Below, piece by piece: positions 39,284-41,503 of a stretch of 64,000 nt of DNA. The notes under the pieces are model-generated. The model was not told the DNA's origin. It searched no databases and was given only the letters and a program-made list of their open reading frames with translations. The stretch comes from Acidobacteriaceae bacterium (GTDB taxonomy: Bacteria; Acidobacteriota; Terriglobia; Terriglobales; Acidobacteriaceae): NCBI GenBank assembly GCA_025360645.1, contig JANYBT010000119.1, forward strand, positions 1 through 64,000, given 5' to 3'. Made by a program: the position numbers and the translations under genes. The number at the start of each line of letters is the position of its first letter. Positions within the stretch are counted from its first letter, which is position 1.

Positions 39284-39697
39284 TTAGGCACCGTCGAGTT
39301 TGGTCAGCACAGGCCCCAGCACGTATGCCACGAAAAAGCCTATGACGTAGATCGCGGCCGCCAACCAAAGCAGAGCCACACTGAGCCGGCTCGCTTCGCG
39401 ACAGGCTGAGGACCCATTTGGGTTGCAGGCATCCGGCCTGCGAAAGCGCGGAGCAATGTAATACGTATTCAAGAAACTCAGTGCAATCAGGATGCCTGAG
39501 ACTGTGAATGTCCACTGTTTGTGCCGCGATAGCGTCACCAGCCAGGGCAGAAACGACAACGTCGATGCGACTGAGGCCCCCAATCCAAGCAAAACCAGCA
39601 GAGACGGAAGCGCACAGCAGAGCAGAGTGCTCACCGAAGTGAACAGGGAAAAATAGCTCAGTAGTGATGAGCGCCTTGTCTCGGAAGGTGTGTTCAT
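39284..39697 (-). CDS. MerT-like metal transport membrane protein
   Basis: 137 residues with three or four membrane segments. The first contains a Cys pair (STLLCCALPSLLVLLGLGAS), as in mercuric transport protein MerT, and a later loop has two more Cys residues (DACNPNGSSACREA). In MerT such pairs pass Hg(II) from the periplasmic MerP across the membrane. The start overlaps the stop of the MerP-like gene in ATGA (39694-39697), so the two proteins are made together. No merA or merR adjoins, so the metal may be other than mercury. Confidence 0.75.
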   Translation of the reverse strand: MNTPSETRRSSLLSYFSLFTSVSTLLCCALPSLLVLLGLGASVASTLSFLPWLVTLSRHKQWTFTVSGILIALSFLNTYYIAPRFRRPDACNPNGSSACREASRLSVALLWLAAAIYVIGFFVAYVLGPVLTKLDGA

Positions 39698-40194
39698 TTC
39701 GCGCCCTCTTTCAGGATCGCCCGATAACGAATCGAGTCCGGCCCCTTGCCCTTCGCAGCTTCGGGAATTATGCCCTCAACCACAACCAAGAGCCCATTCA
39801 TCGCGGCCGCGACCGGCGCGGATGGCGAATCGGGGATGAGCTCGATCACATCGTTCGACCCCGAGACTTGCAGTGCAGTCTTGCCGTTCGCCACCCCCAC
39901 CGTGCCTGCGACCGACGCAGCGGACTGCTTCATGGTGAATCCGTTCTTCGTGATAGCATCCTGCAACTGCTTTAAGGTGGTCCGGTTGCCCGGTTTCATT
40001 TTGACGGAGGCGAGTCCTTTGTCAAGGCTCACCTGAACTGAGTCCACACCAGAAACTGATTTTAGAGACACGCGCACGGCGTGTGCACAAACTTCTCAAT
40101 CCATGCCAAAAACAGTGATGTCGATCTGGCGGATCTCCGCCGCCGACGTGGCCATCAGGACGAGAGTTGCAAATACGACGGTCAGTTTTTTCAT
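39694..40194 (-). CDS. MerP-like HMA protein, probable selenoprotein with in-frame TGA
   Basis: 166 codons from an ATG at 40194, with AGGAGG five bases upstream, to a TGA at 39696-39694. A signal peptide (KKLTVVFATLVLMATSAA) leads into an HMA domain, ITVFGMD-x-EVCAHAVRVSL, where x (codon 33, 40098-40096) is TGA. It occupies exactly the first Cys of GMxCxxC; the second Cys is residue 36. The frame then stays open for 133 more codons with normal HMA strands (SGVDSVQVSLDKGLASVKM) and a C-terminal domain of about 90 residues. A SECIS-like hairpin follows. Reading TGA as selenocysteine gives a UxxC metal site. The alternatives are a nonsense mutation or a sequencing error; a start after the TGA (GTG at 40077) would lose the signal peptide and first HMA strand. 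Confidence 0.75.
40068..40098 (-). promoter_or_regulatory. SECIS-like element after the in-frame TGA
   Basis: After the TGA (40098-40096) come 11 bases (40095-40085) and then a 17-base minihelix (40084-40068): ACACGC pairs with GCGTGT around the loop CGTGC. An 11-nt distance, a 17-nt upper hairpin and a G-U in the loop are the core features of the E. coli fdhF SECIS recognised by SelB. The TGA that ends the gene is not followed by a comparable hairpin that I can see. Confidence 0.6.
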
Positions 40195-40207
40195 AAAAGC
40201 CTCCTGG

Positions 40208-41056
40208 CTAATGGGAATGCTGAAAGAGTAGATAGCTGAAGTTGACGGCGAAGCGCACGCGCTCCCTCGGGAAGAGCGTGCCGAGACACTGATACACCGG
40301 AAGCTGCGCGCCGAAACTCACCGTATAGTTGCGGTAGATCCCCAGCATGGACGGGCCGAGGAACACTTGGTGCGCCTGGGTCTGGGCCACGCTCGCTCTG
40401 TGCTCCAGAAATTGGCTTGAGCGCTCCCCGACCAACTCGCCAAAAATGCGCCAGTCCCACTTGTCGGGCGGTTTCCGCCACTTCGGCGGACGGTAGCCAT
40501 AAACCAGACTGTAGTCGAATGCGATGGGGCGCCGGTCGCCATTGTGCTCGGAAAATTGGGTGTAGGTGCCTCCCACCCAGATGTAGTGGCTGCGCGAGGC
40601 CATGCCCGTCACCACTCCTGCCATCGCCCCGGGCAGGTTCGTGGTGTGTGCTACCCCTGGCAATCCGGATTGCGGGCCTGGGACCACAACGCCCGCGAAC
40701 GCCGTGCTCTCGAAGCGAGTGCCCACCCGACTGGCTCGGTGCTGAAATCGCCACGCCAGAGTCGCATCAAAGTCCGCTCCCGGTTGTATCCGCGTGGGTG
40801 GCAGGGTCGTAGCGCCGAATACCGCTGGCGTAGTTACTGAAATGGTGAGGTGTGGGGTGATGCCATAGCCGATCAGTCCGCGAAAGGACCCTTGCGACCC
40901 AAACTCCGTGCTCCGGCCAAATACCCCGGCATCATAGCTCCACTCCCCTTGCGAATTTGTTGGCGTTGCCAGCCCAAATACCGGGCCGTGTCCTGAGGCG
41001 ACGGCGTTCCACGGCAGCCCCAGAAAAAATAAGAGCCAAAATACCAAAGATTTCAT
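40208..41056 (-). CDS. Outer-membrane beta-barrel protein of the mer-like operon
   Basis: 282 residues from the ATG at 41056, which follows GGAGGAGG; an ATG four codons earlier is less well placed. A signal peptide (MKSLVFWLLFFLGLPWNAVA) is followed by alternating strands such as SYDAGVFGRSTEFGSQGSFR, YGITPHLTISVTTPAVFG and RVRFAVNFSYLLFQHSH. The protein resembles a transporter-type barrel of the outer membrane, and the C-terminal strand is aromatic. It ends 13 bases before the MerP-like gene and may pass the metal across the outer membrane. I do not recognise a more exact family. Confidence 0.7.
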   Translation of the reverse strand: MKSLVFWLLFFLGLPWNAVASGHGPVFGLATPTNSQGEWSYDAGVFGRSTEFGSQGSFRGLIGYGITPHLTISVTTPAVFGATTLPPTRIQPGADFDATLAWRFQHRASRVGTRFESTAFAGVVVPGPQSGLPGVAHTTNLPGAMAGVVTGMASRSHYIWVGGTYTQFSEHNGDRRPIAFDYSLVYGYRPPKWRKPPDKWDWRIFGELVGERSSQFLEHRASVAQTQAHQVFLGPSMLGIYRNYTVSFGAQLPVYQCLGTLFPRERVRFAVNFSYLLFQHSH

Positions 41057-41128
41057 AGCCTCCTCCATCCTGTGCCCACAAACACACTTGTGCGTGGCTT
41101 TGCGTATAGACGCAGGCGAACAAGGGAC

Positions 41129-41503
41129 TCAGATCCTAAGGATGGATGGGGATGCGGTTGGCCAGGGTGGCGGCAAGCCTTGCGTCAGTTGAGCATTGCT
41201 AGAGGCGTGCAGAAGAACGAATTTTGGGAAGGGCTCAAGAATGGCGACTGTGATGACGGGATGCAACCGGGGGGAAGCGGTCACCTCTGCAAATTTCAAC
41301 GCGGTGTGTTCTACCTTCGTTTCACAGCAAGGATGATGGCTGTTTCCCATGTGGCAATCGCCTGCCATCTTCTTGCAACACGCCATTTCGGCCGGCGACA
41401 TGGTCGGAGTCGGCAGACAGGCGAGGACGGGCGTACCAGCACAAGCAAGTAGGACAAGCAATGCCGCACAATACCTGAACCCGGCTCCCATCCACCACAT
41501 CAT
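41129..41503 (-). CDS. Cys/His/Met-rich secreted protein leading the mer-like operon
   Basis: 124 residues. A signal peptide (FRYCAALLVLLACAGTPVLA) precedes a compact metal-binding cluster: MSPAEMACCKKMAGDCHMGN followed by SHHPCC. The density of Cys, His and Met recalls periplasmic soft-metal binding proteins. The C-terminal half has no such residues and is predicted to be disordered. It begins 38 bases after the prenyl synthase stop on the same strand, so the mer-like genes may extend that transcript. Function inferred from composition and context. Confidence 0.65.
   Translation of the reverse strand: MMWWMGAGFRYCAALLVLLACAGTPVLACLPTPTMSPAEMACCKKMAGDCHMGNSHHPCCETKVEHTALKFAEVTASPRLHPVITVAILEPFPKFVLLHASSNAQLTQGLPPPWPTASPSILRI

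Follow-up and report, generated by a model that had tools for sequence, protein, structure and literature searches.

A predicted metal-carrier selenoprotein with a UxxC-type HMA domain, encoded next to a MerT-like protein in Acidobacteriota

The described systems closest to the locus analyzed here are the mer operons with MerT, MerA and the periplasmic Hg2+ carrier MerP (TIGR02052), and the CopZ-type copper chaperones (NF033795, NF047957, TIGR00003), whose known members consist of one CxxC domain and lack a signal peptide. HMA-domain selenoproteins have already been catalogued, namely NF041115 (UxxU_metal_bind, 'metal-binding (seleno)protein', earlier 'putative mercuric reductase'; U stands for selenocysteine, Sec), an E1-E2 ATPase with a UxxC motif (ABB15669.1) and MerT-type proteins (PMC9312934, PMC13188914). 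Selenocysteine in heavy-metal transport is also represented by NF045683 (MerT_CopZ_Se), a MerT/CopZ fusion-like heavy metal transport selenoprotein, and a GOS table predicts a 'Mercuric transport protein MerP' selenoprotein from marine metagenomes (2 sequences, no motif listed; PMC2398784). The gene cluster that we compare with these systems (Table 1) lies in a 64,000-nucleotide stretch of an Acidobacteriaceae genome, hereafter the window.

Table 1. Features of the UxxC selenoprotein gene and its neighborhood in the window
Feature	Position	Strand	Remarks
MerT-like membrane protein	39284..39697	-	Cys27-Cys28 in first hydrophobic stretch; loop Cys91/Cys99; all conserved
ATGA overlap	39694..39697	-	MerT-like start codon on selenoprotein stop codon
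Selenoprotein CDS	39694..40194	-	signal peptide (about 1-19), HMA domain with GMD-Sec-EVC, C-terminal OB-like beta-barrel suggested (about 87-162)
Stop codon TGA of selenoprotein gene	39696-39694	-	
bSECIS hairpin	40068..40084	-	covariation in 5 of 6 pairs
Hairpin parts	40084-40079; 40078-40074; 40073-40068	-	5' arm ACACGC; loop CGUGC; 3' arm GCGUGU
In-frame TGA, codon 33	40096..40098	-	read as selenocysteine, first ligand of UxxC site
Start codon ATG of selenoprotein gene	40194-40192	-	
Shine-Dalgarno AGGAGG	40200..40205	-	read directly
Porin-like, probable outer-membrane protein	40208..41068	-	no Pfam family; kept directly upstream at almost every UxxC and CxxC locus
Small secreted Cys-rich protein (CCKKMAGDCHMGNSHHPCC)	41129..41503	-	cluster's first gene

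An in-frame TGA in the metal motif of an HMA protein

The sequence-only reading had described an ATG with AGGAGG, followed by a frame for a signal peptide and an HMA domain in which TGA replaces the first Cys of the metal motif, and had proposed a candidate selenoprotein. Reading of the gene bears out each element of this description. The product is 166 residues long (its translation begins with MKKLTVVFATLVLMATSAAEIRQIDITVFGMDUEVCAHAVRV...), codon 33 occupies the place of the first Cys of the GMxCxxC motif (here GMD-U-EVC), and 133 codons are open downstream of the inner TGA. With U scored as C, the protein matches the Pfam HMA family (PF00403) at 48.7 bits, above the cut-off of 24.8, and an AlphaFold prediction on the family alignment (mean pLDDT 87) has the ferredoxin-like HMA fold, so that profile score and predicted structure both place it in this family. 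The HMA half of the model matches CopZ (6ff2, TMt 0.89) and MerP (1osd, TMt 0.82); the structural matches further include CCS, which joins an HMA domain to a beta domain. The C-terminal domain, modelled alone, reaches a pLDDT of 78, and its matches in the PDB are weak and mostly OB-folds (best E 0.036), for which reason 'OB-like' is offered here as a suggestion.

A TGA that lies close to a Cys codon within an open frame carries little weight by itself; the pattern is cheap, because a mechanical scan of the window returns 24 such matches in about 20 places. The window gene is singled out by the same-codon TGA in independent relatives, by a dN much lower than dS downstream of the TGA and by a covarying SECIS hairpin.

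The genome of the window (3.8 Mb, 99.9% complete) contains all four of the sel genes by which the proposal was to be checked: selB (366.8 bits, cut-off 242), selA (543 bits), selD (361 bits) and selC, the tRNA-Sec with anticodon tca. The selD gene (L018, G000:C103:10512-11441) contains one inner TGA, and SelD of this genome is therefore probably a selenoprotein as well.

Among 398 genomes searched from the window's bacterial family, TGA was found at codon 33 in 11 places including the window, and Cys (GMDCAPC or GMDCPPC) in about twenty. The named genome collection agrees with this distribution: MAGs of several projects, from Acidobacteriaceae and elsewhere in Acidobacteriota, carry the TGA forms, and the Cys forms occur in Edaphobacter, Granulicella, Acidipila and Terriglobus. 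The motifs among the relatives are UEVC, UGVC, UAVC, UAIC and UMTC, with UAVC, UAIC, UMTC and USIC forms added by the class-wide search; no relatives were found in viral contigs. A distant relative with the motif GIT-U-PSC (L194, G418:C21) is an HMA-like UxxC protein outside the main groups. Relatives were expected to show Cys or TGA here and to be conserved beyond it, and both the alignment and the substitution rates agree with this: downstream of the TGA, dN is 0.21-0.58 and dS exceeds 1.2 or is saturated, a difference which indicates that this part of the gene is translated and under selection.

The state of the codon follows the presence of SelB, which scores over the cut-off in 49 of 54 genomes with U forms (the remaining five are all less than 90% complete) and in one of the 17 genomes with the GMDCxPC form (Fisher p about 1e-10, taking genomes as independent of kinship). 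The sole exception to this rule is genome G365, which has a CxxC (CPPC) form (L044) together with SelB over the cut-off. In a 79-protein tree with the motif residues masked, the 22 GMDCxPC proteins group into a single clade that lies next to and amid the UxxC forms. The likeliest scenario suggested by this topology is a single Sec-to-Cys replacement in the Edaphobacter/Granulicella/Terriglobus line accompanied by loss of Sec use, the direction of the change depending on the root.

A covarying SECIS hairpin and the UxxU sister family

The hairpin of the window gene begins 11 nt after the UGA and its loop starts 17 nt after it. In the bSECIS model, the loop lies 16-37 nt after the UGA and has a G in its first two positions (PMC13188914); the window hairpin agrees with this model in loop distance and in the G of its loop, which is followed by U. 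Across 19 distinct UxxC sequences, the 6-bp helix with the loop CGUGN is paired in 99.1% of cells and two-sided changes occur in five of the six pairs; none of 500 shuffles is as good and slid registers fail too, which points to a hairpin that is kept by compensatory changes. A hairpin of -6 kcal/mol or lower in the 16-37 nt slot is present in 19 of the 21 distinct UxxC sequences surveyed versus none of the 23 Cys genes, and appears in 14% of synonymously recoded UxxC genes. In the close set, pS is 0 in the five hairpin codons (+5 to +9) versus 0.63-0.85 elsewhere, and synonymous sites outside the hairpin codons are near saturation. The minimal 6-bp window hairpin has an energy of -7.2 kcal/mol, slightly short of the published limit of -7.5, and two UxxC relatives (L182 and L186) are without a good hairpin of the window type. 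The minimum-energy fold of the window RNA alone is another register, a 7-bp stem with the loop ACGCC, which we rejected since the relatives do not support it (73.7% of cells paired, 452 of 500 shuffles as good). The gene also ends with TGA, and how the cell tells the inner TGA from this stop, a question raised from the sequence alone, is answered in principle by the conserved hairpin after the inner codon.

These observations bear on two other readings of codon 33. That the TGA is a true stop, with the gene a pseudogene or the codon a sequencing error, is suggested by nothing but the usual meaning of TGA; an error is ruled out by the recurrence of the identical TGA in many MAGs of different projects, and a pseudogene by the purifying selection after the TGA and the covarying SECIS, so that we give this reading a negligible probability. 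For the decoding of TGA as some other amino acid, via a suppressor tRNA or an altered genetic code, no support was found. The selenoprotein gene itself terminates at TGA, the genome has a tRNA-Sec with the anticodon tca, Cys occupies this codon in genomes that lack SelB, and the spacing of the hairpin, the length of its loop and the G/GU in the loop accord with the bSECIS model (PMC13188914); with the selection after the TGA and the covariation of the SECIS, recoding to another residue is ruled out for practical purposes, its probability being equally minute. Codon 33 is almost certainly selenocysteine.

In a sister family that extends across Acidobacteriota, TGA replaces both Cys codons of the HMA motif (loci L052-L063, L159-L162, L164-L176, L183, L187-L193 and L195). 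These UxxU proteins were found in twelve genomes of the window's bacterial family and in many more of the class and phylum, the two-TGA matches at the phylum level coming from the search rather than from codon-by-codon reading. Its motifs are GMT-U-NF-U, U-PL-U, U-SL-U and U-GL-U. The layout of the proteins is that of the UxxC family and the operon is similar, but the next gene encodes a TlpA-like protein with a WCQPC motif in place of the MerT-like protein. The hairpin survey covered 36 distinct UxxU sequences. A hairpin (GACGCC-loop-GGCGUU) lies 31 nt after the second UGA and 40 nt after the first; pairing in this second helix holds in 98.7% of cells, its positions being mostly invariant or changed on one side, and the hairpin codons are nearly frozen. 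The UxxU hairpin would accordingly rest on conservation more than on covariation, and the first helix in these genes is doubtful.

Predicted function of the UxxC protein

The porin-like and MerT-like genes adjoin nearly all UxxC and CxxC genes. In the MerT-like proteins, four Cys (the Cys-Cys pair and the two loop Cys) are kept in 29-30 of 30 rows, an arrangement which we take to be the cysteine plan of MerT, and the window's MerT-like protein scores 14.7 bits against Pfam MerT, below the cut-off of 32.9. The porin-like and the Cys-rich proteins have no Pfam or NCBIfam match. At one locus (L202), a cation-efflux gene is next in line.

On the basis of this gene context and the predicted fold, we propose a tentative mechanism. 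SelB bound to the hairpin would deliver Sec-tRNA at the UGA; the protein would be exported to the periplasm, where its UxxC site may bind a soft metal ion such as Hg2+ or Cu+; and the metal would be passed to the MerT-like membrane protein encoded by the overlapping downstream gene, as MerP passes Hg to MerT. The sequence-only reading had likewise supposed that this site would have a high affinity for soft metals. The selenolate, with its low pKa and very soft character, might leave the site able to bind metal in a periplasm that is acidic and oxidising. Taken as a whole, with both the Sec codon and the carrier role, the description of the product as a periplasmic metal-carrier selenoprotein appears probable. 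The identity of the metal and the direction of transport are guesses: the MerT-type Cys pattern somewhat favors import, and mercury is not favored over copper or other metals because MerA over the cut-off is absent from the genome of the window. The best MerA homolog in this genome (L232, G000:C84:1007-2353) is a MerA-like flavoprotein below the cut-off and without the C-terminal Cys pair.

The main rival explanation keeps the selenoprotein but makes the UxxC pair a thiol/selenol redox site that holds a partner or the metal in the reduced state. A redox function is presumed for the majority of known UxxC selenoproteins (PMC13188914), the next gene in the UxxU sister family is the TlpA-like WCQPC protein, and CCS is among the structural matches; the fold, however, is HMA rather than thioredoxin, and the UxxC operon carries the MerT-like protein and no reductase. 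We regard a redox role as unlikely and prefer the carrier.

Translational coupling at ATGA-type overlaps is well established, and the ATGA overlap is present in nearly all UxxC loci. The UGA could thus be mainly a selenium sensor: synthesis of the MerT-like protein would need ribosomes that have passed the UGA, so that selenium would gate metal transport, a role that could coexist with that of a carrier. Against this, the CxxC loci, which have no UGA, share the overlap, which therefore did not evolve for selenium sensing, and the conservation of the protein around Sec suggests that the residue itself matters. As the main purpose of the UGA, sensing is quite improbable.

With the carrier as the preferred reading, a wider scheme can be outlined, to which we attach a good deal less than even weight: periplasmic metal handling throughout Acidobacteriota would rely on selenolate ligands in two parallel operon versions, one with UxxC and the MerT-like protein and the other with UxxU, that is two Sec per metal site, and the TlpA-like reductase; both Sec of the UxxU proteins would be inserted via one shared hairpin about 31/40 nt further on, with metal handling gated by the supply of selenium.

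Sec is nearly always discussed as a redox catalyst, and here it is predicted to replace a metal ligand of a classic carrier domain in many genomes of one large soil phylum, in a family that probably handles toxic or reactive metals. The natural CxxC, UxxC and UxxU versions in matching operons offer a ready comparison for the contribution of selenium to metal binding, and in the UxxU family two Sec codons lie within 9 nt of each other. Because the standard code ends UxxC genes falsely at residue 32, such genes are apt to escape ordinary annotation.

Relation to known families

No NCBIfam cut-off is reached by the window protein or by single representatives of the UxxU and CxxC forms, and the best NCBIfam families, by E-value, are the same for 23 members. 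The CopZ-type chaperones yield the best HMA-domain scores, all below cut-off, and are among the best structural matches. NF041115 shares the HMA-type domain and Sec at the Cys positions of the metal site, but it is a 74-residue UxxU model, whereas the window protein has UxxC, an added C-terminal domain and an operon; compared via the model, it reaches 45.5 of the 95 bits required, and assignment to this family was rejected. NF045683 describes one fused protein, unlike the separate genes of the window, and the window protein scores 18.8 bits against its cut-off of 375. The E1-E2 ATPase, compared by its description, is a membrane pump. The GOS 'MerP' selenoprotein, compared by its table entry alone, is listed without a domain and without Cys homologs, and is not recognisable in the table of the 2026 catalogue.

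Neither the UxxC nor the UxxU family is recognisable among the 119 selenoprotein families of that catalogue, and the accessible part of the open-licence literature yielded no paper on Sec in HMA-domain copper chaperones or on HMA selenoproteins of Acidobacteriota. HMA-domain selenoproteins are known as a kind; the UxxC and UxxU families appear to match no catalogued family, and the UxxC family is apparently both real and uncatalogued.

The initial label 'MerP-like' stands in part. The window protein misses the MerP equivalog cut-off (35.9 versus 92.55 bits) and was not filed as MerP; it has Sec for Cys and an added beta-barrel domain, and the mer operon is not matched, with the neighbor below the MerT cut-off and no MerA over the cut-off in the genome. 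What the label rightly captures is the fold, with its match to 1osd, and an exported HMA protein encoded beside a MerT-like one.
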